A stretch of DNA of 21,762 nucleotides, from positions 6,200 through 27,961 of IMG/VR virus record IMGVR_UViG_3300030419_005350, one strand, 5' to 3'. Positions 1,531-21,030 of the stretch are shown one piece after another; the first letter of the stretch is position 1; every line of letters begins with the position of its first letter. Source of the stretch: a virus. The notes beneath the pieces are model-generated. The model saw nothing but the letters and a program-made list of their open reading frames with translations. It ran no database searches and had not been told where the DNA came from. The translations under genes were made by a program, and so were the position numbers.

Positions 1531-4500
1531 TTAGCTATAGTTTTTCCATTTAAGAGGATATAGCCTTCTAACTATCCCTCCTGTTGTAATTCCAGTCACT
1601 CCATCGGTAGTATAAGCATTATATGCCTTAGCATCAGCTCTATTTCCAAATAGAACTTTGCCCCAAGAGAAGTTACCATAATAACCACTATATCCAAGAC
1701 CAGTCAATCCTTCAAGATTTGCTACACTCACAGTAACGTGAGCGACTGCTGTTAAACCAGCACCTGTCTTGGATTCTGCTGCAGTTACTCCAATAGAAAC
1801 AGCAGCCACTTCATATACATTATCTATAAAGGTAGATCCTATTCCTAAAGTACTACCATCTTGATAAAGAGAAGTTACTCCATTACCAACAGCCGAATTA
1901 CTAACTGTAAAGTAATATCCAGTACCAATTCCACTAACCGTAGTAACTCCAACTATATTAGAATCTCTTAGTTCTGAATCAGGAGGAATAAAGAGATCAA
2001 ATACTATTCCAGTAGATGCAACACCTACAGAAGTAGATTTAATTCCACTAATAATTCCAAAGTCACCTTGATAAGTTACACTGGTTGCCTTTCCTCTTAC
2101 AGGGATAGGATCACCAATAAGAACTTGAGGTGGATTTGTAGATGTATATCCCGATCCTGGAGTAGATCCAATAGTTATAGCATTTACAACCCCACTGCTT
2201 ATAGTTGCTGTTGCATATGCCTGACAATCTCCTGGAGTAGTTCCAAGTCCAACAGGAGAACCAATAATAACAGAAGGAGCAGATGCATAACCATATCCTC
2301 CATCTGTAATACTCAGTGAGGTAATTGTTCCTGCAGTAGAAACATTTGCAGTTGCGGAAGCAGAAACTTTACTATCTTGAGATATAATCTCTACTGTATA
2401 TGTGTTGAGATCAGTATTATTTTCATTAATAGGATCAAAGAATGGTTTTGCATTCTGAACCCAAGCACATGTAGATGCTACACCAACATTCTGAATTAAG
2501 AATGCAGTAGGTTGAACAAGTGGTTCATAATGAACTCTATCTTTTCCAATTCTAAGTCCATCAATAAACTTATCTTTAGTTTGCTTACACCATTTAATTG
2601 GTCTTAATAATGTATCATCAGTGGTAATTCCTGGACCACCATAAGGATTAGTATTAACAGAATCAGTAGTATTGATCCCAGTAACAACTCTCTCATCCTG
2701 AAGCATTCCATATCCTTGATTATATGGATCTCTAGGTTCATTCAGTAAGGTAAGTTCATCACCTACTTTTACAGTTTCAAGAACATCTTTAAAGACAACA
2801 TCAATATCTCCAGTTCCTTTATAATAAAGAATCTTCGTAGAATCTCCCTTCTTGGGTGCTTCACTGAATTTAAGAGTACTTCCTCCACTAAAGGTATATG
2901 CTTGTCCTGGGACTTGAAGAATATCATTAATGAATACTAATAGAACTGATTGAACATCAATTGATGATCCTTTAGCAGCTCTAATTGTAAGATAAGTACC
3001 ATCAAGTTTAATTGGGAAAGACTTATTATTACCATCACACAAATCATCAAAATGGTCTAATACTTCTAAATCACCAAGAGTCCATCCTGCAAATGAATCA
3101 CTAAAGGTATCTTGAATAGTAATCTGGAATTCCTTATAAGTTAAAGAAGGATCTGTAGGAATTCCTGCACTTCCTCCAGTATGAACTGTCAATACTTCAC
3201 CTTGACCATATGCATATCCAGTATTTCTAATTGAGAAATCAATTATACTTGATCCTTGCCCTACTACTACATCAATCTTACCCTGAGTTCCTATTCCCTG
3301 AGTGGACTCAGAACTATAGATTAAATCTAAATTCTCATAAGATTTAGGATCATCAAATTTAACTTTCAATTCCTTATTAAGCTTACCACCTCTAGCATAG
3401 AAGTGCGTTCTAGTAGATACTCCAGTTAATACCTCAAAGTTCTTACTGTCAATAACATTAACAACTGTAGATCCACTCTCAGCAGGATCTTGACCAGAAT
3501 CAGAGAAGTTCTTTGCTCTAGGAGCAATAATTGCTGCTTGAACTTTTCCTCCTCCCTGATAGAATGTAGGAACAGTAGATGTACCAACATTAACAGTAAA
3601 GGTAGTTGTAGTGCCTACACTATCAATAGGAACTCCAGCATAAGTAGGATCAGGCTTCCTTGGATAACTATGCTCAGTAGCATGTGCGTCTCTAGCACAT
3701 GTAAAGGTAAGAGATTCTGTAGCAATAGCAACATTTGTACCTTTAATCATATTATGAACGGTACCACCTGCTCCAGTAAGAGTTAAAACAAGATCACCAT
3801 CTGAAGGATCATAAGTTGCAGCAGAAACATTATGATATACTAAAGTAGATATTCCAACATTAAGAGTAATTGTAGTGGCAGTAGTTGCTCCAATAGAAAT
3901 TGAAGTATTAGAATAAGGATCACTAGGACGTGGATAACTATGAAGGGTTTGATAATCATCCATTGAACATCTAAATGTGATTCCATTATCCAACATCTTG
4001 ACAGATTCCCCTGCCTTACTCAATCCATTTGAACTTGCAGATACAAAGGAATGAATTCCGGTATATGCGGATGGTCTTCCTATACCTTCCTCTAATACAT
4101 TAACTTCAAATGTGTTGGTCGTAACTCCACTAATCGGTAACCATTTATTATTTGCATAATCGCTAGATCTTGGATAAGTATGATTGGATCCATAACTATC
4201 TTTGGCACAACTAAAGGTTAAAGAGTTAGTAGCAAATTTAACCCTATCCCCGGTAGTAAATGATTTTGCAGTTCCTACATAACAAGTCATGATACCAGTA
4301 TTAGGATCATACTGTGCATCCGTTATAGTTTCAGTTGAAGATCCTCTTAAAGTATGAGACCCGATGGTGAGTACCATATCACCAGTTGATCCATCATACG
4401 TAGCATGAGATGGGGTGTAGAAGACGCTAGCAGAGGTTCCAACGTTAACAGTTATCGTATCATCAGTAACAGCGGTAATGGAGGTATTAACACCCGTTAC

Positions 4501-7500
4501 AGGGTCCGTAGGACGAGGATAAGCATGGGTAGTAATACCAGTATCCATTGCACAACTGAATACTATACTACCAGTATCAAATCCTACAGTATCACTAGTA
4601 GTGTAAGTATGCCCACTACCAACTGTTAAGACCATAAGACCAGTAGTTGGAGCATACGTAGCGTTTGTAGGTACAACCGAACCAATTCCTGTTACAGTAA
4701 TAGAACCTACTCCTACGCTTGTGAAAGTATGGGAGTAATTACCGCCCGTAATCAGACAACTAGTTCCAGCACTAACAAAGTTGTGTAGATAATCTCCACC
4801 AGCAACTATAGCATTGGAAGATGCGCGTTTGAAGGTATGTGCATATTGATCTCCAGGACCAGCAACTCCAACATTAACTGTGATTTTTCCAGTATGCTTT
4901 ATTAATCCATCGTCCGAAGCAGAAACAAAAGTATGAGCAGAAGTATTGGAGGATGGAGTTACATTAACCGTAAATGTATTAGTTGTTTTATTAGCTACTT
5001 CCAACCATCTATTGTTTACAGGATCAGTTGGTCGTGGATATGAATGTTGAGTAGCATGACCATCTTTAGCACAAGTAAAGATTAATGATTCATCTACAAT
5101 TCTAACTAGATCTCCATTAGAGAATCCATGACTAGAAACTGTTAAAGTCAATACTCCAGTAGCAGGAGCATATGAAGCATCACTTACTGTATACGCTGTT
5201 CCATCGTTTGTAATAGCAAGAGAATTATTATATGCATAATCAGCACCTCTAGGATAATAATGTGTTGATACACCAGAATCAATAGCACAGGTCATTCCCA
5301 ATCCAGTGAATATGACAACACTTGATTTATTGGTAGCATTAAATCCATGAGCAGTACTGGTAGTAACTGTCATAACACCAGTAGTGCTTGTATAATCTGC
5401 GGTATAAATCCCAATAGGACCAGCATAATCACATGTAAATGCAATACCAGAAAGTTTAATATTTTCTCCTCTTTGCAATCCGTGAGGAAGATGGGTTGTA
5501 ACTGTAGTTAATCCACTGAGTGAACTATAACCAACATTAGAAATATCTTTAGGTCTATAGAATACCTGAGGATTGGTAATTGCAATTCCAGTAATACCAC
5601 CGTTAACAATCTGTCCAGTACCAACTCCGGTATAATTGGCAGCATACAAACTTGATGTTTGAATTGCTACATTCACTGTTGGTTGAACATTAAGTCTATA
5701 TCCAGTACCACTAGTACCAATACCAATAGAGGAAATAGTTCCTGCTGCGGATACTACCGCTGTTCCTCCAGCAGCAACTAATGGTTGTAATCCAAATCCT
5801 TCTGTAGATCCAACAGAAACAATAACTCCACCTACAGGAATATTTGCATTATTAACATCATAAGCAACAGAAGTTGCTGTTCCCGTAAAGAAGATACTAG
5901 AGATACCAGCACTTTCTTTCATATCATAATCTTCTTCACGAGGTTGAGTTCCCTCAGGACTCTGGAAGACACCATTAATTAAAACTATACCATTGCTAGT
6001 AGAGAATCCAGTAGCACTTGTTCCACCATCCTTAGTTAAAGAGAAAGTCTTAGCAATACCAGTGAATGAATTAGAAATATCATCAAAGATAATATTATTA
6101 GTATAAGTCTCGGCAATTGTACCTGTCTTTCCACTTCTCATAAAGGTTCTACCTTGGAAAGTAGAATGTGTAGAAATACCAGTCCAATCTCTATCATCAG
6201 GTGCATTTGTATCGGATGATATTGGATCTAATCCATAAGGTGCCTCAACAAAGTGAATCTTATTCTCCCGAATATTATAATTACCTTCAATTATCTGAAC
6301 CAAATCACCAGAACTATGAGTAGAAAGTCCAGTACCCATCCATGGTCTATCAACAAGAATTACATTAGTGCTACCAAGACCAACAGTGTTGATCTTCATA
6401 ATTTCACTATTAATTTGGACTAAATCCCCACTAAAGAACGAGGTTATTCCAGTAAATTCAATTTTCTCATCTACTAATGATATATCCTTATCCAGAGTAG
6501 TAGTTATTGCTCCACCAACAATAGGAGACTGGAACCAATTATCAATTGCAATAAGTGCCTTAGCATTCTGATTAGTTGATGTGAAGGAGTGTGAAGTTCC
6601 AATACCAACAGCAGTAATATCAAATACTACTGGATTCTGTAGAAGTGCTTTCTCAGGACTTGCTGCCAACTTAATCTTACTATCATTAATTTTAACAGCA
6701 TATACAGTTGGTGGTACTCTAGTAGTTGCTCCAAACCCAGGACCACTAGTTGAAGCAATACTAATTGCTTGAGTGGAACCTATACCTGCCCAAGAATACT
6801 TAAGTTCTTCACCCGTTACAAAGTAATGATCCGGAATAGTAATAGTATCATCAGAAACGCTGACTAAATCCGTATCACTTGCATTTACAAATCTTTGGAA
6901 TATTGGCAACTCATTATGAAGTAATCCAAAGGTTCTCTTAATATCAGTATGAGTTCCTCTATACTCTGCATAACTCGAAGTAATTTTAGCAGATTCAAAA
7001 TCAATGGATGAAACCATATCATCCTTAGCCACACTTAAAACATTTTGGAATACTCTTACTTGAACCTTAATATTATGATTTGGAATAAAGGTTAAATGAT
7101 TTCTACCAGAACCATCATTATTAGCACCGATAGTTCCTAATCCAGTAGTATGTAATTGAACATTACCATATTCAGTGAATGCATTATAATCATCGTCATC
7201 ACATGCAACAACCTCACACATCTCATAACGCTTATTAGTAGTATCCTCCAATTGGACAACATAGTATGCAGCATGAGAATCTGCATGATACTCAGCAATA
7301 GTGTTTATACCAGGAGTTCCTGAAGCAGCAATAGATGTATACCAAGAATCTAAAAGACCAGTACTTAACTCTTGAGCAGTTCCTACTCCAGTTGCAGTAG
7401 ATGTACTACTTGCAATAGAAATAGACATTGCACTTACACTATGACCTACACCAAGTGCAGAATCAGGTGTAAAGTCAATCTTTAATCTAGAACCATCAAT

Positions 7501-10500
7501 ATAAGGATAATATGTTCCTAATCCACTTACACCATAGGGACTAACATTACTATCTGTCAATTGACCATATTCAACCATATCAACAGTTGATCCATCATGA
7601 ATTAAATTAAGTTCATCAAATTCATAGTATGAACCATCATTTGCTCCAATCTCAACAATAACTTTTGCAGAACGATAAGTAGATGCAATTCCTACAATAG
7701 TAGTGGCACTATTCGTTCCACTAGCCATTTGTTTATAGTGAGAATTAATATTAACAATACTTCCTAAAGCAGTGCTACCTATTCCACTATTATTACTCAA
7801 AAGATCATGTGAAATATAAGTAACATCATAATTATTATCTTCATACTTAATAGGATAGAATTGAAGTCTTCCTTCCTCTCCACTTACATTCCAATCAAAG
7901 GATCCTAAATCAGGATGAGTTTCTACTCTAGCATACTGATTAATAAAACCATTTGAACCATCATGGAGAAGTGATACTAAAAGGACTTGCCTTTCTTTTG
8001 TATATCTCTTATCTCTTACATAAGTAAAATATTTTCTAGTCCTATATGCCGTTAATTTATCACTATTAATAACAGCATATCTTGTTGATCTTGGTTTGTT
8101 ATTAAATTCACCGCTAAAGTCGTCAATAGTGAGAACCCTATTTCCAACAGATTCTGAATAATCAGTTAATGCTCTATTTTCAAATATGATTTGATTAGAA
8201 ACTAATGCTGTTCCAATTCTTACTGCTTCTTCAGATGCTAAATCAAAAGTATAAACACAGTGAAGATGTCCTTCTCCTGTTAAATCTGCAATAATTTCAG
8301 CATCACTATCCAGACCAAAAACTCCACCTCTATTATCTGCCTTAGTTTCAACAACTAAATTGGAGAATTTTAAGAATCCAGCAGTGTGGTTTAAAGAACT
8401 AACAGGATCATTCCAATCCTCATAAGCAACTTTAGATTTCAAAGCATAAGAGAAATATTGATAATAATCATTATCTGGTAATCTCTGAACATTATCATTC
8501 AAAATACCTGTATCATATCTCCATCCCTTATTAACTTGGGAATAAGGTCCCAACTTAATGTAAGAATCATAATCAATTTTACTCTTAATACGTCCTTTAG
8601 TATTAGAAGTTTCACCAGTAAGAATTTGACCAACTTCAAAATCACTATCCGTAGCAACTTTAAGAGTTTCTATCTTATTATTCCAACTCTCTACAATTCC
8701 ATTTTCATTACCAACAGTAACAGTTTCTCCATTTTTAAAATCATTAATTTTTAATTTAATATCAAAAATTGGGAATTGCTTTTTAGGAATTATTCTACCA
8801 AAAGAATTAGTAGGATCAAAATAACCAGGATATTGATCACCCTCCAAAACGGAGCTCATATCATAAACTATAGAACCTGTGTTACCACCCAAAGCGGCAT
8901 TTACTTCAGTAACAGGGAAAAGTTTATAGTTATAAGCAGCAGAATTATATCCTAACGATGTACTTCCAACACCAACACTAGTATTCTCAATAAGAACGTC
9001 ATCTCCTACAGCAACAGGGAATAAATCACTAAATCCAGTATTAATCCCTACAGTTACTAGTTTAGTAGTGCTATTATAGGTAATAGTATTAATTCCAATT
9101 CCATTAGAATTGTGAATTGGTATAATAGTTGGGAGAATATTATTCATCCCATAAGTATTCTGTATTATCCTTACTTGAGGGGATCCAACATTATATTCCA
9201 AAATAACATCATCTACTACCTCACCAGTATATCCATCTAAAACAACTAAAGTAGGATCAGTCAGATAGTTCTTACCACCCGATGAAATACCAATACTTTG
9301 GAAAGATGTAAGAGGTTCAATTGTCAGAATTTCTGGAAGGTTGAGAGAAGGTTTTAAAGTAAAATCACTAGGATAATCAAATCCAATATTTTCAATTGTA
9401 TCCTTTTGAATTTTACCAATCGAATTACTTTGAACTTCTAAAATTGCTCCCTTTCCATATGCTGAGGAAACTGTACTAATACCAGGATTAAATTCATACT
9501 TTCTACCACCGTTAACAACTTCAACTTTAGCAATAGCCCCATAAGCAGTTGAAGACTGTGTAGTATAATAAGAATTTGCAGTGGTAGAGGTATAAGACTC
9601 TGCTTCAGGATATTTTCTTACATTATACTTAAATGTAGTAGTTCCTAATCCAACTACTTTTTGAGTTCCTGAATACAGACTATCAATCAAATTAAGTTGA
9701 TTATAATTAACTACATCAGTATCAATAACAATCTGTTTTTTAACATCAGCAATATAATCTTCATTAACGGCTTCTAGATTATAATAAAGATTTTCTGGGA
9801 CATCATCATTTAAGAATATCTTAACAGTAGCATCGCTTTCAAGTCCTATTTTACCACTCTTAACAACTTCAAATTTATTAGTGACCCCAGTAGATTCAAA
9901 CTCATAATTAAATTCAGGATCCTTATACAAATTAAAGGTAAATGCTGAATAGGAAGTTACACCGACTTTGGATGATAAAGTAGAATCAGATAAATCAAAT
10001 GTAACAATCTTATTCCGGTAAACATCCAACTGAGGATTAATCAAACAGATAGTTCCTATTGTAGCAGTCGTAATATCAATATAATTCGGTATATTTAAAC
10101 TTAAATCATATCTGGTTTTGCATAATCTAATCTTATCTTTTGTATAATAAAGAACATAGTAAATTGCTTCGTTGACTAACCCACCAGCTGGTGAATCAGC
10201 TTTATAGAGAACCTTATCACCATGACGTAATCCATGATTGCTAAGAGTAATAGTATCAGCAGCAGTGTCTATAGCCGATGCAGCCCAAGTTACTGAGTTG
10301 TATACTGCTCTTCTATTATCATCATCATATTTTACAGTTATAGTTTGAGTATCTTTTGGAAGAACTGAAACTTGGATTTCATCACCTAAGGATAATGCAT
10401 GAGTAGAAGCAGTCGAAACAGTAACAATATTTTGTCCTATTTCACCTGATATACCAGTTCTCTTAGTAGTAAAGCTATGATAATCTCCTATACCAAAATT

Positions 10501-13500
10501 CTGGAAATAAGGTAACCGTTGTGTAGTAGTAGAACCAACACCAACAAAAGTTCCTGTAGTTCCTAAACCTACTTTAACAGTTGAAATTCCAATAAAATCT
10601 CTTGCAATATTAGCAACATATAAGTCTTGACCCTCTGGCAATTTAAATGTAGTTCCAGATGTAATACCTGTTATAGGATGCCAACATTGAATTCCAGTTC
10701 CACCATGATTTGAATAAGTAACCTTTTCACCAGTCTTTAATCCATGATTAGGAATGTAAATTTGACTGTAAGGAACAAATACTTGTGTTACTCCCAAACC
10801 AGGCATAGAGAACACTGCAGTAGATCCAATACCAGCAATTGCTGAAGTTCCAATACCTACAGATTCATTAGGATTGAAATAAATCTCTCTATTCACACTA
10901 TAACTATAATCTGTTTTAAATCCCGTATTAATAGTGAATTTACGTGGATCTTCTCTAAGGATAGCTGATGAACTATATGCAAATCCTACGGTGCCATCAA
11001 CTGCTCTTCTAACTCTAATTCTTTTACCAACTTTGTCGATATTAAGGACTTTAACCTTTTCAGTATTACCTATTCCAAGAATATCATTTTCCCTAATGTA
11101 TGGGAAATCAAGGAAACCAGTAGTATAGAAATAAGTAGTCAATCCTGTTACATTAGTGCTTCCAATACCTAAAACAGTTACAAAGTTATCTGTTCTAATT
11201 CCTATAGTATAGTCACCTTCTAAATGAGCAAAATAAGTACTTAATCCAGAAACAGTGATTAATTCACTATTCTTTAATCCATGAGGAGCAGTGGTAAATC
11301 CAACAACACTTCCACGCCCATCTAAAGTAGCAAATTCAACATTAGAATATGAAGTAGTTGCAACACTTACTGAAGAAATACCCGGACTATAAAGACTCTT
11401 AACTTTAGCAGAAGCATTGTTTCCACCTGTTAAAGAATTATCAAATAAAACCCTATCTCCAACATTGTAATTACTACCTCCAGTTAAGATACCAATAGAA
11501 TCAACTTGACCAGTAGAAACACTATCGATATTTACTGTTTGATTTCTAACACTATCGGGGTCAAAAACAAAATTATACGAACTATTAGATGATTTAAGTT
11601 GATAACCTAAAGTGTTCCTAAACCATTCAGATTTATTTAAATCAAACTCTTCTTGATTTATATCATTACTCCAATCTGATGCAATAGGTTCCGAATAGAA
11701 ACTTGTTCCAATAACATAAGGGAACTGTGGTCGATAGAATCCATCAAAAGATCCAGAAGTATCAGTTTGTCCGCCTTCAATAGTAGTGAAGTATGCATAA
11801 ACTCCATTAGGATATTCAGGTGTTACTCCAAATCTACCGTTATGCTCATCAAGATCTCCACTATTTTTAAAGGCATAATCTTCATTAAAGAATCCTTGTG
11901 GGAAAAGAGTAAGAGATGGTCTATTAGTATGAGAAACTAATTCATACCCAGACATCATTGCTCTAGCAACTCCACCCTCCGGAGTAGTATATCCATAAGG
12001 ACCATAGATTGGATTTCCATCATATGCCCATCCAAGAATTGGTGAATGCCAAGAAGAAGCTTGTTCTGTATTTTGAGCTATCCTCAGATCCCCAACACCA
12101 TATTGTATCTCTCCTCCATCATTTCTTACAAATACAGATTTCCTAAGTTGTCTAGGAGCATACATGTGGCAATATTGTAATCCAAAATCATCTCTATCTG
12201 AACGAGCAATAATTCCATCATCTGCAGTTATAGTATCTAATAATTTGCGGAATAAATTGATTGTCCACTTCTCAAGGTGTGCTTTGAGTTCACAAGTAGA
12301 TCCAGCTGGATTTATAGTAAGAGTAGTATCATTATCATATCCAATTCCGCCAGTTATTACCTTTACTTCTTTTAGTTGTCCCCCTTCAACAATAGGAGTA
12401 AGTGTAGCATAATTTCCACTTCCATTAATTACCAAATCAGGTGGGGAATTATATCCTGTTCCATTTCTTGTAACCAATACTTCCTGAATTCTTCCATTAC
12501 TAACTACAACCATCACTTCAGCATCATTTCCCTGACCATTAACCTCACCACCACTTCTGAAGAAGAATTCAGGTTGTCTATCCCAATTAACAATAGTATC
12601 TGATCCGTAAGAACTTCCAGCGTTAGTTAAGTGAACAGACTCAATCTCTCCTCTAAAAATAGGTTGAAGCTGTGCAGAAAAATCTTGATTAGCTAATGTA
12701 GAAACTCCAATGTTTCCAGTAACAACAACAGAAATGGCCGGATAGTTGAAAGAGTGTATTCCACTACCAACTGATTTCAAATCAACATATTGTTCACTAT
12801 CCAAATACTCTCTTATAGATGTAGTTCCCAATCCAACAGGAGCAAGTTTAAAGGAATCATTATTTACCTTTTTAACCAAATATTCTAAGGAAGTATTAAG
12901 ACCATCAATAACAGTTCCTGTTGTACTATAAGTAACAGTCTCACCTGTCTCATATCCATGAGAATCTATATTAATATTATTAAGCGATGTACTAACACCA
13001 GCAGTTTGAGCAGTTCTCTTTTTATTTGCATAGTCTTCACCACTGTTACTAACAACGATATCTGAAATTATATTTTTCTTTACAGTAGAATTAATTTGTT
13101 GCCGCCCAACACCATAACCGCTAATGAAAACAGTGTTTATTCCACTTATAGCATCCTTTTGTTTGGGATAAAGCTTAACTGTTTGAGCATCTACTACACC
13201 CACATGATAAAATGCTCCTGTAGTTAAACCACTTAAAGCAGTTTGCTTATCTGGATTATATACAACTTCTTCATAATCTCTAAACTTGTGGTAAGTAGAA
13301 AATCCAATTAAACTAGTAGTAGCACTTCCTGCTTGAATGAATACATCCCCACTCGATCCCTGATTAGTTGCATCAAAAGAAACACTATGAGATACAGATC
13401 TCATATTGACTTCTGCAGCTGCATCCTTACCATTTCCTCCACTAATGGTAATAAATGGAGTACTTACATAATCAAATCCACCATCAATAATTTCAATTCT

Positions 13501-15888
13501 TTGAAGAGATCCTTTTACCGCACATATACCCGTTGCAGCACTACCGACAGAATCTACAATATCCAAACTAGGTGGAGTTATTATATCATATCCTGATCCT
13601 GGAGCTTCAACTTCTATCTCTTGAATACCGCCATAGAATATAGTATCGGGTGATTTATAATTTAAAACCTCAACTCCATTAATTAAAACACCTGTCTTCC
13701 CAGGTTCTGTTGTATAATTACCATCCTTGTTTAGTGGATCTTTTACTTCCCTAAAAAGATTTTGAGCTTTTATTTCTTGCCTGGCAAAATCAAAATCCTG
13801 AATATTGTTAGAAGTTACAATTCCAGAAATAGTAATAAAATCACCATTATTGATATTAGATCTACTCTTGGCAAAACTTAATTTAGAAGCACTTATTCTT
13901 TTAACAAAATACAGTCCTTCCTCAAGTTCTGGGAATTTACTTATAGAAGTTTGAATTCCTGTAAATCCATCACTATCAACAACCGTTTCTTCTTTCACAT
14001 ATGGTTGATAGTAAATCCTATCTCCCGTGTAAAAACCATGATCTAATGGAGCATCAGGATCATTAGCAAGTACATCAATCTCGGATCCACTATACTCACC
14101 AGTTAAAGTAAGTTTTCTACTATATGGATTAATAAAAGTATCCTTATAAAAAGGAAGGGAGGGAGATCCAACTAAAATTTGATTATTAAAATTAGTATAG
14201 GTATTTTGAATATTTGCATTATTCCTATTCAGATAAGGATATCTGGTAGAATCTACTTTGGTTAATTTCCTTTGAACTTTATAAGTGTAATTAGAGAATA
14301 ATTCGCCTTGTCCTCTAATAGTAAACTTCCTGGCCCCAGTTACAGAAATAATATCACAATCTTTTATTACTCCGTCACTTCTAGTAACAAGTCCTCTATC
14401 ACCAGCTTTAAAATTATGAATATCATAAGATGTTACTTCATAAGTATAATTCGAAATATTAACTATACTAAAACCATCAAGTTCATATGTGTTAGCAATA
14501 TTATCAATCCAATTATCTCTTCTAGTAGTGACAGAAGAAATTCCTAAACTTTTAATCCTACCTGTATCATTCTTAGAATATAAATGTGTTTCTGGAAGTA
14601 CAACATCTTCTAAAACAGATCCAACTCTAACCTTAACTATATCATCGGTAGTTATGCCAGAATAACCATAAGCATAAGCATCTAACCTGATTTCTGCTGC
14701 TGTTCCAAGTCCAGAGACAATAGCGGTACTTGCTATACCAAAAAACTGAGTAATAGACTTAGAAGAGTAAGATACTAATCCAGCAACTCCATTATCATAT
14801 CTAAATGCAAGTTCTCCAGATTGAGCAAACCCAACAGTCGAATCAACATCAATTGTGGTAGCACCAACAGAAACAGGAGTTATTACTAATGTTTTTGGAT
14901 GAACAGAAAACTCACCATAAAGACTTCCCTGTAACGTTACATCTTTATTATAATCAGCATCAAAACTTAATTTATAGTACTCTGTAGTACCTATAGAAAT
15001 TTTTTCTACATCTGTAACAGATCCATATGCTTCTGTAATATCATATTTTTCATCAGCATCTTGATATAAAGTATTATTTAAAAGTTGTGTAGGATCTCCT
15101 TCAAGATGCTCAACAACTAAATCTCTAGTTCTTCTCCAACCAGCATCAGATGGTTTGAATAAGAAATCTCTTGGTTTAATAACTTCAACTTCTTCACCAT
15201 ATAATGCACCAAATAAAATTTCAAATGACCTATCAGTACCTTTTGAAGAATAAAAATCTTTAGATTGTTTAATAAAAAGATTTTGATTTAAATCACTATC
15301 TAAATTTCTCTCAGCAAATCCAGGAATAAATTGTTGCTTTAACTTATTGAGAAATTCAGTAAAAAATAATCCACTTAAATTATAAACAACTGGACCTATA
15401 GCATATCCCTCATACCTCTCTACAGTGTGCTGTGCCGTCTTAGAAGAGGAGAAAACTAGTTCTTCGGGGGAATTAGTCTTAGAGTACTTAGTAACCCCGC
15501 TGAACCCCCTTACACACCCCTCAAAGGTCGAATCTGTCTTACTAGTATAGGTAATTATTTCATCATCAATTTTGATAACTCCATATCTATCTGGAAATCC
15601 CTTTGTACCAGTTAAAATCTTACCATCTTTATCAGTACTAGTGCTTATATTAATAGTAGTATCATTATAAGATACATCTTCATTTAATATACATGTATCA
15701 ACATTACTAAAAATTTCATCAAGTTTAAGATACTTGTCAAGATTTTGAACAAGATCAGTAGCTGAACTAGGGTATTCCTGCGAAATATAATATTGCTTTA
15801 AAAAGTCTACAAGAAGCGGATTTTCCTCTGCAATAAAATCTGGCAGTTGATTCTCAACTATAGATTGGATTTTGACTCTAGTTTCCAT
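1531..15888 (-). CDS. Giant virion structural protein in the gp7 position, 4785 aa
   Basis: Predicted virion protein of roughly 500 kDa, one uninterrupted frame. Residues about 175-245 (LNQNLFIKQSKDFY, then KGTDRSFEILFGALYG) resemble the P2 gpI/T4 gp7 tail-protein-I pattern, where a helix ending in K/R-G-T is followed by a short alpha-beta unit. I infer that this end docks on gp6. Residues about 1235-1400 form a YHYH-type domain (YDGNPIYGPYGY near 1287, GRFGVTPEYPNG near 1350, FPYVIG near 1389). Near 2455-2500 is a WRYDTG...YYQYFSYALKS block. Residues about 3530-4085 carry six HxYPRxxDP modules. Elsewhere there are many GIGST/VGLGTT turns and GxGYxxxPxV beta repeats. The start ATG lies 3 nt after the gp6 stop, with no good Shine-Dalgarno nearby, so it is probably translated by coupling. 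No signal peptide or catalytic motif was recognised. T4 gp7 is about 1030 aa, so gp7 equivalence rests on position and the N-terminus only. Confidence 0.9.
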   Translation of the reverse strand: METRVKIQSIVENQLPDFIAEENPLLVDFLKQYYISQEYPSSATDLVQNLDKYLKLDEIFSNVDTCILNEDVSYNDTTINISTSTDKDGKILTGTKGFPDRYGVIKIDDEIITYTSKTDSTFEGCVRGFSGVTKYSKTNSPEELVFSSSKTAQHTVERYEGYAIGPVVYNLSGLFFTEFLNKLKQQFIPGFAERNLDSDLNQNLFIKQSKDFYSSKGTDRSFEILFGALYGEEVEVIKPRDFLFKPSDAGWRRTRDLVVEHLEGDPTQLLNNTLYQDADEKYDITEAYGSVTDVEKISIGTTEYYKLSFDADYNKDVTLQGSLYGEFSVHPKTLVITPVSVGATTIDVDSTVGFAQSGELAFRYDNGVAGLVSYSSKSITQFFGIASTAIVSGLGTAAEIRLDAYAYGYSGITTDDIVKVRVGSVLEDVVLPETHLYSKNDTGRIKSLGISSVTTRRDNWIDNIANTYELDGFSIVNISNYTYEVTSYDIHNFKAGDRGLVTRSDGVIKDCDIISVTGARKFTIRGQGELFSNYTYKVQRKLTKVDSTRYPYLNRNNANIQNTYTNFNNQILVGSPSLPFYKDTFINPYSRKLTLTGEYSGSEIDVLANDPDAPLDHGFYTGDRIYYQPYVKEETVVDSDGFTGIQTSISKFPELEEGLYFVKRISASKLSFAKSRSNINNGDFITISGIVTSNNIQDFDFARQEIKAQNLFREVKDPLNKDGNYTTEPGKTGVLINGVEVLNYKSPDTIFYGGIQEIEVEAPGSGYDIITPPSLDIVDSVGSAATGICAVKGSLQRIEIIDGGFDYVSTPFITISGGNGKDAAAEVNMRSVSHSVSFDATNQGSSGDVFIQAGSATTSLIGFSTYHKFRDYEEVVYNPDKQTALSGLTTGAFYHVGVVDAQTVKLYPKQKDAISGINTVFISGYGVGRQQINSTVKKNIISDIVVSNSGEDYANKKRTAQTAGVSTSLNNINIDSHGYETGETVTYSTTGTVIDGLNTSLEYLVKKVNNDSFKLAPVGLGTTSIREYLDSEQYVDLKSVGSGIHSFNYPAISVVVTGNIGVSTLANQDFSAQLQPIFRGEIESVHLTNAGSSYGSDTIVNWDRQPEFFFRSGGEVNGQGNDAEVMVVVSNGRIQEVLVTRNGTGYNSPPDLVINGSGNYATLTPIVEGGQLKEVKVITGGIGYDNDTTLTINPAGSTCELKAHLEKWTINLFRKLLDTITADDGIIARSDRDDFGLQYCHMYAPRQLRKSVFVRNDGGEIQYGVGDLRIAQNTEQASSWHSPILGWAYDGNPIYGPYGYTTPEGGVARAMMSGYELVSHTNRPSLTLFPQGFFNEDYAFKNSGDLDEHNGRFGVTPEYPNGVYAYFTTIEGGQTDTSGSFDGFYRPQFPYVIGTSFYSEPIASDWSNDINQEEFDLNKSEWFRNTLGYQLKSSNSSYNFVFDPDSVRNQTVNIDSVSTGQVDSIGILTGGSNYNVGDRVLFDNSLTGGNNASAKVKSLYSPGISSVSVATTSYSNVEFATLDGRGSVVGFTTAPHGLKNSELITVSGLSTYFAHLEGDYTIGIRTDNFVTVLGIGSTNVTGLTTYFYTTGFLDFPYIRENDILGIGNTEKVKVLNIDKVGKRIRVRRAVDGTVGFAYSSSAILREDPRKFTINTGFKTDYSYSVNREIYFNPNESVGIGTSAIAGIGSTAVFSMPGLGVTQVFVPYSQIYIPNHGLKTGEKVTYSNHGGTGIQCWHPITGITSGTTFKLPEGQDLYVANIARDFIGISTVKVGLGTTGTFVGVGSTTTQRLPYFQNFGIGDYHSFTTKRTGISGEIGQNIVTVSTASTHALSLGDEIQVSVLPKDTQTITVKYDDDNRRAVYNSVTWAASAIDTAADTITLSNHGLRHGDKVLYKADSPAGGLVNEAIYYVLYYTKDKIRLCKTRYDLSLNIPNYIDITTATIGTICLINPQLDVYRNKIVTFDLSDSTLSSKVGVTSYSAFTFNLYKDPEFNYEFESTGVTNKFEVVKSGKIGLESDATVKIFLNDDVPENLYYNLEAVNEDYIADVKKQIVIDTDVVNYNQLNLIDSLYSGTQKVVGLGTTTFKYNVRKYPEAESYTSTTANSYYTTQSSTAYGAIAKVEVVNGGRKYEFNPGISTVSSAYGKGAILEVQSNSIGKIQKDTIENIGFDYPSDFTLKPSLNLPEILTIEPLTSFQSIGISSGGKNYLTDPTLVVLDGYTGEVVDDVILEYNVGSPQVRIIQNTYGMNNILPTIIPIHNSNGIGINTITYNSTTKLVTVGINTGFSDLFPVAVGDDVLIENTSVGVGSTSLGYNSAAYNYKLFPVTEVNAALGGNTGSIVYDMSSVLEGDQYPGYFDPTNSFGRIIPKKQFPIFDIKLKINDFKNGETVTVGNENGIVESWNNKIETLKVATDSDFEVGQILTGETSNTKGRIKSKIDYDSYIKLGPYSQVNKGWRYDTGILNDNVQRLPDNDYYQYFSYALKSKVAYEDWNDPVSSLNHTAGFLKFSNLVVETKADNRGGVFGLDSDAEIIADLTGEGHLHCVYTFDLASEEAVRIGTALVSNQIIFENRALTDYSESVGNRVLTIDDFSGEFNNKPRSTRYAVINSDKLTAYRTRKYFTYVRDKRYTKERQVLLVSLLHDGSNGFINQYARVETHPDLGSFDWNVSGEEGRLQFYPIKYEDNNYDVTYISHDLLSNNSGIGSTALGSIVNINSHYKQMASGTNSATTIVGIASTYRSAKVIVEIGANDGSYYEFDELNLIHDGSTVDMVEYGQLTDSNVSPYGVSGLGTYYPYIDGSRLKIDFTPDSALGVGHSVSAMSISIASSTSTATGVGTAQELSTGLLDSWYTSIAASGTPGINTIAEYHADSHAAYYVVQLEDTTNKRYEMCEVVACDDDDYNAFTEYGNVQLHTTGLGTIGANNDGSGRNHLTFIPNHNIKVQVRVFQNVLSVAKDDMVSSIDFESAKITSSYAEYRGTHTDIKRTFGLLHNELPIFQRFVNASDTDLVSVSDDTITIPDHYFVTGEELKYSWAGIGSTQAISIASTSGPGFGATTRVPPTVYAVKINDSKIKLAASPEKALLQNPVVFDITAVGIGTSHSFTSTNQNAKALIAIDNWFQSPIVGGAITTTLDKDISLVDEKIEFTGITSFFSGDLVQINSEIMKINTVGLGSTNVILVDRPWMGTGLSTHSSGDLVQIIEGNYNIRENKIHFVEAPYGLDPISSDTNAPDDRDWTGISTHSTFQGRTFMRSGKTGTIAETYTNNIIFDDISNSFTGIAKTFSLTKDGGTSATGFSTSNGIVLINGVFQSPEGTQPREEDYDMKESAGISSIFFTGTATSVAYDVNNANIPVGGVIVSVGSTEGFGLQPLVAAGGTAVVSAAGTISSIGIGTSGTGYRLNVQPTVNVAIQTSSLYAANYTGVGTGQIVNGGITGIAITNPQVFYRPKDISNVGYSSLSGLTTVTTHLPHGLQRGENIKLSGIAFTCDYAGPIGIYTADYTSTTGVMTVTTSTAHGFNATNKSSVVIFTGLGMTCAIDSGVSTHYYPRGADYAYNNSLAITNDGTAYTVSDASYAPATGVLTLTVSSHGFSNGDLVRIVDESLIFTCAKDGHATQHSYPRPTDPVNNRWLEVANKTTNTFTVNVTPSSNTSAHTFVSASDDGLIKHTGKITVNVGVAGPGDQYAHTFKRASSNAIVAGGDYLHNFVSAGTSCLITGGNYSHTFTSVGVGSITVTGIGSVVPTNATYAPTTGLMVLTVGSGHTYTTSDTVGFDTGSIVFSCAMDTGITTHAYPRPTDPVTGVNTSITAVTDDTITVNVGTSASVFYTPSHATYDGSTGDMVLTIGSHTLRGSSTETITDAQYDPNTGIMTCYVGTAKSFTTGDRVKFATNSLTFSCAKDSYGSNHTYPRSSDYANNKWLPISGVTTNTFEVNVLEEGIGRPSAYTGIHSFVSASSNGLSKAGESVKMLDNGITFRCSMDDYQTLHSYPRPSDPYSNTSISIGATTATTITLNVGISTLVYHNVSAATYDPSDGDLVLTLTGAGGTVHNMIKGTNVAIATESLTFTCARDAHATEHSYPRKPDPTYAGVPIDSVGTTTTFTVNVGTSTVPTFYQGGGKVQAAIIAPRAKNFSDSGQDPAESGSTVVNVIDSKNFEVLTGVSTRTHFYARGGKLNKELKVKFDDPKSYENLDLIYSSESTQGIGTQGKIDVVVGQGSSIIDFSIRNTGYAYGQGEVLTVHTGGSAGIPTDPSLTYKEFQITIQDTFSDSFAGWTLGDLEVLDHFDDLCDGNNKSFPIKLDGTYLTIRAAKGSSIDVQSVLLVFINDILQVPGQAYTFSGGSTLKFSEAPKKGDSTKILYYKGTGDIDVVFKDVLETVKVGDELTLLNEPRDPYNQGYGMLQDERVVTGINTTDSVNTNPYGGPGITTDDTLLRPIKWCKQTKDKFIDGLRIGKDRVHYEPLVQPTAFLIQNVGVASTCAWVQNAKPFFDPINENNTDLNTYTVEIISQDSKVSASATANVSTAGTITSLSITDGGYGYASAPSVIIGSPVGLGTTPGDCQAYATATISSGVVNAITIGSTPGSGYTSTNPPQVLIGDPIPVRGKATSVTYQGDFGIISGIKSTSVGVASTGIVFDLFIPPDSELRDSNIVGVTTVSGIGTGYYFTVSNSAVGNGVTSLYQDGSTLGIGSTFIDNVYEVAAVSIGVTAAESKTGAGLTAVAHVTVSVANLEGLTGLGYSGYYGNFSWGKVLFGNRADAKAYNAYTTDGVTGITTGGIVRRLYPLKWKNYS
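3640..5450 (-). repeat. Six degenerate HxYPRxxDP protein modules within the giant gene
   Basis: The giant protein repeats a unit of roughly 75-115 residues, of the form ATYDPxTGxLxLT, GDxVxI, SLTFxCAxDxxxxxHxYPRxxDP, then TxTVNVG. Cores lie near 5289-5235 (HYYPRGADY), 5080-5020 (HSYPRPTDP), 4560-4505 (HAYPRPTDP), 4220-4160 (HTYPRSSDY), 3980-3915 (HSYPRPSDP) and 3710-3645 (HSYPRKPDP). Each core keeps one Cys (x-C-x-x-D) and one His. A seventh, decayed unit (FTCDYAGPIGIY) is seen near 5440. Between copies B and C (about 4930-4700) is a shorter repeat of HTFVSA/HTFKRA/HNFVSA/HTFTSV units. Nucleotide identity between copies is only moderate, so the array looks old rather than freshly duplicated. 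Confidence 0.8.
11690..12185 (-). other. YHYH-type domain within the giant virion protein
   Basis: Residues about 1235-1400 of the giant protein carry the hallmarks of the YHYH protein family (Pfam YHYH as I recall it): HSPILGWAYDGNPIYGPYGY, then LDEHNGRFGVTPEYPNGVYA and FPYVIG. The usual cysteine of the LDxCNG segment is replaced by His here (LDEHNG). The family's function is unknown to me. In phages it is found inside large virion proteins. Confidence 0.75.
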
Positions 15889-18738: not shown

Positions 18739-19536
18739 TTAAATGATACGATTTTTCTCATGTCCTACGCGAATTCGAGGATCGCACCAGATCTGATAGT
18801 CCTTATCAATAGCATCAAGACAGAATGAAACGTCTTCACCACACATGTCTTGAACAGCACCTGATTCAAAGACCTGCATTTTAGGTGCAAACCAAGGATA
18901 CTCAAGATCTTCAAAAACGCCCTTCTTAATTAAGACCCAACCGAAACCTGTGTAATCAACTGTAAAGGGTTTTGATCTTTTCGAGATGCTTTCGACGGTC
19001 TCGTGATTCATAACACCACCGTTCTTGCGGAAATCATCTTCCTCTAACCAGTGTGCTACTGAGGTCGTTTGCCCATCTTCTGTTGCATACCACCCTGCAC
19101 TGATTGGACGATCCTTTGTGGTATCAACAGTACCATCTTCCTTAACTGATTCAGCAGGTAGTGCCATATCACAAAGTTGCCAGAATTTCTCTGTGTTAAA
19201 GACAATATCCGAGTCTATCCATAGTTGGTAATCATAATTTAACTTACCATCCCACGGAACTTGCTTAGGTCCTCTGAGAACATTAGCACCTAAACACTTA
19301 CAACGTGCAAAGTTAACCATTGATGAATAGTCCTGGGATATCTGGATAGACATACCGTTCTGAACCATATCAAAGCATAACTGCACAAAGTTTTTCAGAA
19401 AGACGTAAGAACATCCACGTCCTGGAAGACAAAATACAATTGTCTTTCCTTTCATTCTTGCTTTGATAGCATCAATATCCCATTCAGGTGCTTTCTTCTT
19501 TGGGGTATTGGCTTTAACCGTAAATCCTTTTGCCAT
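18739..19536 (-). CDS. Glycosyltransferase-like protein (GT-A type, DxD motif)
   Basis: 265 residues. After a basic N-terminus, residues 32-40 (TIVFCLPGR) look like the first beta strand of a GT-A fold. YDYQLWIDSDIVF (101-113) contains a DxD motif (D108, D110) of the kind that binds the metal and sugar nucleotide. FTVDYTGFGWVLIKKGVFE (191-209) and GEDVSFC (233-239), ending in HEK (259-261), match acceptor and catalytic regions of family-2-like transferases. The likely role is modifying host or virion surface glycans, inferred from the fold. A perfect sigma70-type promoter lies just upstream. The Shine-Dalgarno (GAAGG) is about 13 nt from ATG, which is long. The gene is followed with no gap by the 28-aa and 50-aa genes. 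Confidence 0.7.
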   Translation of the reverse strand: MAKGFTVKANTPKKKAPEWDIDAIKARMKGKTIVFCLPGRGCSYVFLKNFVQLCFDMVQNGMSIQISQDYSSMVNFARCKCLGANVLRGPKQVPWDGKLNYDYQLWIDSDIVFNTEKFWQLCDMALPAESVKEDGTVDTTKDRPISAGWYATEDGQTTSVAHWLEEDDFRKNGGVMNHETVESISKRSKPFTVDYTGFGWVLIKKGVFEDLEYPWFAPKMQVFESGAVQDMCGEDVSFCLDAIDKDYQIWCDPRIRVGHEKNRII

Positions 19537-20577: not shown

Positions 20578-20606
20578 ACTATAACATAACTGTGAATTAC
20601 TGTCAA
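20578..20606 (-). promoter_or_regulatory. Sigma70-type promoter for the 57-aa gene
   Basis: TTGACA (20606-20601), a 17-bp spacer and TATAGT (20583-20578) on the minus strand, 31 bp before ATG 20547. One base differs from the consensus pair. It is suited to host polymerase early in infection. Confidence 0.8.
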
Positions 20607-20617: not shown

Positions 20618-20625
20618 TATTTATA
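20618..20625 (-). promoter_or_regulatory. Exact T4 late promoter element TATAAATA
   Basis: TATAAATA on the minus strand, an exact match to the T4 late consensus, lies just upstream of the sigma70 promoter of the 57-aa gene. The gene may thus be expressed both early and late. Confidence 0.6.
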
Positions 20626-20716: not shown

Positions 20717-20745
20717 TTGTACTTTTCGCTCGCTCGTGTTATACT
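20717..20745 (+). promoter_or_regulatory. Sigma70-like promoter on the plus strand
   Basis: TTGTAC (20717-20722), a 17-bp spacer and TATACT (20740-20745). The octamer CGCTCGCT occurs at 20727-20734 and again at 20747-20754, bracketing the -10 box 20 bp apart. No plus-strand gene follows; the RNA would run into the DnaA-box cluster. Confidence 0.5.
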
Positions 20746-20834
20746 ACGCTCGCTAAGATCACAACGTCTGAGCACATTTAAATGACCTAATAATCTCACT
20801 GTTTATCACATAGTAAGCACACAGTTACTATCAC

Positions 20835-21003
20835 TTATCCACATGATTTCCACACTAATTAACACCTTTTTCAACAAGTATGTGGAAAACGTATAAACAA
20901 GTGGTTCCTATTTATTAGACCATTTATAAACGTTTTTTAATGTATTTTACCCCAATTTGTATTAGTTTTCCACAGAAATACCCTCCTAGTTGTGGAAAAC
21001 TAA
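20835..21003. other. DnaA-box cluster, possible replication origin
   Basis: Five DnaA-box-like 9-mers lie in 165 bp: TTATCCACA (20835-20843, plus), ATTTCCACA (20846-20854, plus, one mismatch), and TTTTCCACA at 20881-20889 (minus), 20966-20974 (plus) and 20991-20999 (minus). TTATCCACA is the classical bacterial box. TTTTCCACA is the form I recall for cyanobacterial oriC. Between boxes three and four is an AT-rich stretch (about 20890-20965) that could unwind. No gene occupies the segment. Origin function is inferred; a DnaA-binding regulatory site is the alternative. Confidence 0.45.
20962..21003. repeat. Perfect 13-bp inverted repeat
   Basis: TTAGTTTTCCACA (20962-20974) and TGTGGAAAACTAA (20991-21003), with a 16-bp spacer. 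Each arm contains one TTTTCCACA box. A second pair, TACCCTC (20979-20985) and GAGGGTA (21004-21010), crosses it. It lies 28 bp after the stop of the 75-aa gene at 21031. Confidence 0.85.
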
Positions 21004-21030
21004 GAGGGTAAGATTAGTATGTAGTTAGTG

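Follow-up and report, generated by a model that had tools for sequence, protein, structure and literature searches.

Four sites of DnaA-box type lie close together in gene-free DNA of a T4-like cyanophage, which raises the question of whether the phage starts its replication there with the help of host DnaA, draws host DnaA away from the host chromosome, or uses the sites for another purpose. The window analyzed here, a stretch of 21,762 nucleotides, belongs to a 27,961-bp virus record, and its minus strand encodes the gp25-gp6-gp7 baseplate block of a T4-like cyanophage, in an order identical to that of S-SM2.

The box array in the window

Scans for exact and mismatched boxes and for hairpins detected the following features:

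20835-20843, plus strand: DnaA box TTATCCACA (exact-site scan of the window and the whole record)
20846-20854, plus strand: weak DnaA box ATTTCCACA, one mismatch, 11 bp from the box at 20835
20868-20876, plus strand: weak DnaA box TTTTCAACA, one mismatch (mismatch scan)
20881-20889, minus strand: DnaA box TTTTCCACA (exact-site scan of the window and the whole record)
20966-20974, plus strand: DnaA box TTTTCCACA (exact-site scan), inverted partner 25 bp away
20991-20999, minus strand: DnaA box TTTTCCACA (exact-site scan of the window and the whole record)
20979-21010, minus (late) strand: terminator-like hairpin at the end of the upstream gene, overlapping the last box (hairpin/terminator scan)

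The four exact 9-mers described in an earlier note on this DNA, one TTATCCACA and three TTTTCCACA, were confirmed at 20835, 20881, 20966 and 20991, and the 27,961-bp record has no exact TTWTCCACA site besides these four, all of which lie within the 165 bp of 20835-20999 rather than being spread through the record. Their density is beyond chance, as had been claimed, with 0.87 exact boxes expected in the window and four anywhere in it reached by one of 100 shuffles. The linkage of two copies through an inverted repeat also held, the 20966/20991 pair lying within a 13-bp perfect inverted repeat, as did the gene-free character of the array region, which has no ORF of at least 60 aa and is situated between a 75-aa ORF (21258-21031, minus strand) and a 56-aa ORF (about 20551-20381, minus strand). 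The note had counted a single one-mismatch copy where two are present, at 20846 and 20868 (both on the plus strand), and the 11-bp spacing that it gave for the first two boxes is real (20835 to 20846), but the box at 20846 is one of these mismatched copies and not an exact box.

Regarding the type of box, TTTTCCACA has been reported to be the DnaA box of cyanobacteria (PMC4674748). When host genomes were scanned for direct boxes at close spacing, many phyla were among the matches listed, and host boxes were therefore studied beside dnaN instead, where all 15 exact boxes at 30 dnaN-flanking loci of genomes in the same family as a picocyanobacterium were TTTTCCACA. The phage cluster matches this host consensus, as would be expected of a DnaA-dependent origin.

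Two neighboring genes were also characterized. The 265-aa gene at 18739-19536 (minus strand; T4-GC 102) is conserved in many T4-like cyanophages; it weakly matches a glycosyltransferase, and its PHROG has no assigned function. A single 4,785-aa ORF (1531-15888, minus strand) occupies the place of the gp7 baseplate wedge initiator.

Promoter, core and unstable segment

BLASTN of the whole region returned two short phage matches, and relatives were therefore sought via the neighboring 265-aa gene, the core described below and a sequence-only model; a search of the region against Rfam gave sub-threshold matches only. Alignment of the relatives and calculation of duplex stability revealed further elements:

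20717-20745, plus strand: sigma70-type promoter TTGTAC-17-TATACT with extended -10 (TGT), from the sequence and an alignment with 50 relatives
20748-20765, plus strand: conserved core GCTCGCTAAGATCACAAC, expected start of an early transcript, near-invariant in 60 distinct loci
20774-20782, plus strand: conserved ACATTTAAA block 3' of the core (profile positions +27 to +32), present in Syn9-type elements too
20909-20968, no strand: 60-mer with the lowest calculated stability in the non-coding region (z 2.1), candidate unwinding element
20909-20916, minus strand: T4-type late-promoter motif AATAAATA, directed at the late genes and back across the early promoter

The promoter and core (20717-20782) are directed away from the late genes and lie about 3 kb upstream of gp6. 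The 50 aligned relatives mostly have TTGACA or TTGTAA for the -35 and TATAAT for the -10, while the -35 of the window copy is degenerate (3/6), which is why a generic promoter scanner missed it. The element occurs in two forms. In the first, the -35 is followed after 17-18 bp by an extended TATAAT-like -10 and then by GCTCGCTWAGATCAC and ACATTTA, and the sequence-only model finds one strong core match per genome in SynMITS9220M01, S-SM2, Bellamy, S-CAM9 (with an additional weak partial match), P-TIM68 and S-SSM7, and none in T4. The second form, TTGACA-N16/17-TGCTAAGACWACAA...ACATTWA, is found in Syn1, S-PM2 and many contigs, with boxes after it, often at +54 and +77; Syn9 and S-SSM5 carry a sequence that, judged by eye, resembles it, and S-RSM4 (about 140.2 kb) has it without boxes.

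Boxes follow the core closely. In all 16 usable contigs found via the first core form alone, usable being those with at least 150 bp downstream of the core, 2-4 exact boxes lie within 260 bp, and the remaining boxes of these contigs are all within 320 bp upstream of the core. A layout with boxes at 97/161/186 or 132/207/231 bp from the core recurs.

The unstable segment lies between two box groups and, with an AT fraction of 0.74 over 20890-20966, bears out the AT-rich core noted earlier among the boxes. The stability minimum mostly starts at +75 to +165 from the core in 43 relatives and is inside or beside the array in most of them; by calculated stability alone, the array would thus have the adjacent unwinding element of an origin. 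Among 47 relatives, the arrays of 34 carry the late-promoter motif on the late strand (5.8 expected) and that of one carries it on the early strand (5.1 expected), so that the region appears to be set up for early and late transcription in opposite directions. A central segment conserved in a few relatives (20912-20932), considered as a separate element, was largely the late promoter and the AT-rich stretch and was dropped. Elsewhere in the non-coding DNA a strong sigma70-type promoter (20578-20606, minus strand; TTGACA-17-TATAGT, 11/12) precedes the 56-aa ORF and adjoins a second late-promoter motif at 20618.

The skew turning point proposed for the site was not seen: as nearly all genes share one strand, cumulative GC skew only rises, and GC skew at fourfold sites showed no consistent change between left and right of the locus in six genomes, a comparison confounded by the early and late gene blocks.

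Retention and spacing of the boxes among relatives

The prediction that the boxes are kept at the same locus in related cyanophages was upheld in many relatives. At 80 loci gathered by similarity to the 265-aa gene, with no selection on boxes, together with the named phages, 66 exact boxes occur in the 131 kb that lie 0-2 kb upstream of this gene and 10 in 520 kb elsewhere, several of these 10 being clusters slightly beyond 2 kb. A tight cluster, defined as two exact boxes no more than 50 bp apart, was detected in six of 16 complete named genomes (S-SM2, P-TIM68, Syn9, S-PM2, S-SSM5 and Syn1), against 0.08 expected by random placement and with six reached in none of 20,000 trials, and was absent from the other 10 of these 16. 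The candidate site falls at 19.2 kb in S-PM2, 52.6 kb in Syn9 and 58.7 kb in Syn1. Wherever a cluster and a gp25 match occur together, in 14 records, every cluster lies 2.1-8.6 kb upstream of gp25; eight of these records are contigs picked for an inverted box pair regardless of its location. The clusters of G006 and G010 are not accompanied by a gp25 match. Two box arrays about 0.25-1 kb apart were observed upstream of gp25 in G003 (52240-53287) and G004 (81489-82542), and likewise in G008 (61197-61501) and G009 (64250-65303).

Downstream of the core, 60 core-bearing loci contain 121 copies of TTTTCCACA in 15.5 kb against 0.45 expected, although part of these loci was gathered by the inverted-box pattern, and the unselected sets are therefore the cleaner test of enrichment. 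The variants tolerated at the 60 loci are TATTCCACA, ATTTCCACA, TTTTCAACA and TTATCCACA, and both weak types of the window are enriched in relatives (ATTTCCACA, 10 observed and 0.5 expected; TTTTCAACA, 9 and 0.7). Contigs found by the inverted-box pattern were excluded from the spacing statistics, and those with a core were kept in the flank test described below, the box-enrichment count and the late-promoter count.

Direct pairs are spaced mainly at 11-12, 19-22, 31-33 and 42 bp and inverted pairs mainly at 13-14, 24-26 and 33-34 bp, the commonest inverted spacing in relatives being 24-25 bp and that of the 20966/20991 pair 25 bp. Both kinds are phased at 10.5 bp (R 0.83 for direct and 0.76 for inverted pairs), with p-values for phasing as for enrichment overstated because the loci are kin by descent. 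Such helical spacing is characteristic of a protein that assembles on one face of the double helix, and the 11-bp and 25-bp spacings in the window conform to what is expected of a DnaA-type origin.

Known origins, rival explanations and the preferred reading

Among known origins the closest likeness is to T4 oriE, which depends on an early promoter and whose iterons are kept at syntenic places in close relatives (PMC3016281). Like the cyanophage site, oriE lies upstream of the gene 6 baseplate cluster; its annotation places it 1.7 kb before gene 6 and gives its primer RNA as the complement of the transcript of late gene 5. It has an early promoter that works without a phage activator, an antisense primer RNA and opposed late transcription; in the cyanophage the location above the gene 6 block is shared, and the likeness in the opposed early promoter and late-promoter motif is one of sequence motifs alone. 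The two differ in that oriE carries iterons AGTTGAAGGTAAT at a 24-bp period, whereas the cyanophage site has host-type DnaA boxes and a different core; TTWTNCACA does not occur in T4 at 76-83 kb, and DnaA is nowhere mentioned in a review on how T4 replication starts (PMC3016281). The exact 24-bp period of the oriE iterons (79425-79532, L296) resembles the 24-25 bp of the cyanophage inverted boxes, which may be coincidence. T4 oriF and oriG, which are primed by R-loops, share with the cyanophage site a promoter that has an AT-rich, readily opened segment after it and no initiator gene alongside, but they use MotA-dependent middle promoters, whereas the cyanophage site has a sigma70-type promoter and DnaA boxes. 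The cyanobacterial oriC, beside dnaN, likewise has TTTTCCACA boxes, but the sampled host dnaN loci have 0-2 exact boxes nearby, and it is the phage that has the core and the opposed late promoter. DnaA-dependent plasmid and temperate-phage origins, those of pSC101 and P1, contain host DnaA boxes within a self-replicating element, as at the cyanophage site, but both encode an iteron-binding Rep protein, and none is apparent beside the cyanophage site.

The locus is best read as an origin that is primed by a transcript, like oriE, and has gained host-type DnaA boxes, which would make it a putative variant of the T4-type transcript-primed origin. With a probability of roughly 0.6, the segment 20717-21010 is a replication origin of a T4-like cyanophage, placed and built like T4 oriE; its use as an origin is what we infer from the elements, their conservation, their arrangement and their position. 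Host RNA polymerase would make an early non-coding transcript from 20717-20745, antisense to the late baseplate genes, and host DnaA would bind the helically phased boxes flanking the unstable segment 20909-20968 and either help to open it or halt the polymerase there. The transcript would remain annealed and prime leading-strand synthesis, with the T4-type helicase loader and helicase of the phage entering where the DNA is open; the phage late promoter within the array would afterwards drive transcription of the opposite strand and shut the origin off.

Regarding other explanations, DnaA might instead act as a transcription regulator or roadblock that limits or ends the early non-coding RNA, with no replication start at the site. 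The boxes do lie 30-260 bp past the conserved promoter, whose predicted transcript is antisense to the flanking late-oriented genes, but such a role alone leaves the stability minimum, the opposed late promoter and the position of T4 oriE unexplained, and the promoter and core persist in phages without boxes, so that this account is unlikely. Titration, by which multiplying phage genomes would absorb host DnaA and stop initiation on the host chromosome, would be served by tight clusters of consensus boxes duplicated with every phage genome; it is nevertheless improbable, as there are merely about 2-5 clustered boxes per genome and titration needs neither a fixed place by the promoter and core upstream of gp25 nor the recurring layout of distances from the core. 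The fixed arrangement with the promoter in particular makes pure titration less likely.

Two further accounts deny host DnaA any part. Binding by a phage-encoded protein with coincidental DnaA-like specificity would fit the deeper conservation of the core than of the boxes, but is very unlikely given that the consensus equals the published cyanobacterial DnaA box and is also found beside dnaN in host-like genomes. The inverted 9-mers could also form RNA stem-loops, as a terminator or regulatory RNA, rather than protein sites, since the 20966/20991 inverted repeat overlaps the terminator-like hairpin; however, in 37 inverted pairs at related loci, base pairing between the flanks does not exceed that of shuffled flanks (78 observed and 86 expected), the flanks of 150 boxes hold almost no information outside the 9-mer, and many boxes are direct or single, at helical spacing, which makes this account highly improbable.

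Returning to the oriE-like origin, the retention of a box cluster at the same place beside a backward-facing promoter in many relatives suggests that it is probably a replication start that borrows DnaA. The core is kept without a box cluster in SynMITS9220M01 (49605-49675), Bellamy (73325-73391), S-CAM9, S-SSM7 and S-RSM4. As 10 of the 16 genomes have no cluster and several of them have the core, the boxes look like a frequent addition and not the whole mechanism, and as at least five box-free named genomes keep the core, DnaA would not be needed in all of these phages and would be at most a common helper. The host-DnaA-dependent origin proposed earlier is thus partly supported, by the box match, the retention of the locus and the origin-like anatomy, and not by the skew or by the genomes that have no cluster.

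The level of host DnaA tracks the host cell cycle and light. Tentatively, and at somewhat under even odds, a large group of virulent T4-like cyanophages may have a hybrid origin that is R-loop-primed in the T4 manner with opening assisted by DnaA, its box module gained or lost among relatives and linking phage replication to the cell-cycle state of the host. A single theta origin has been predicted for Syn9, with no mechanism given, in a review (PMC2984593). A literature search covering few subscription journals turned up neither DnaA boxes nor a mapped origin reported for cyanomyoviruses, and the abundant T4-like marine cyanophages appear to have no located replication origin in the literature searched. 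The locus supplies an exact origin candidate, found in the isolated laboratory phages S-PM2, Syn9, Syn1, S-SSM5, S-SM2 and P-TIM68, and makes it possible to test where replication of these phages starts and whether the DnaA of the host is required by a virulent T4-like phage.
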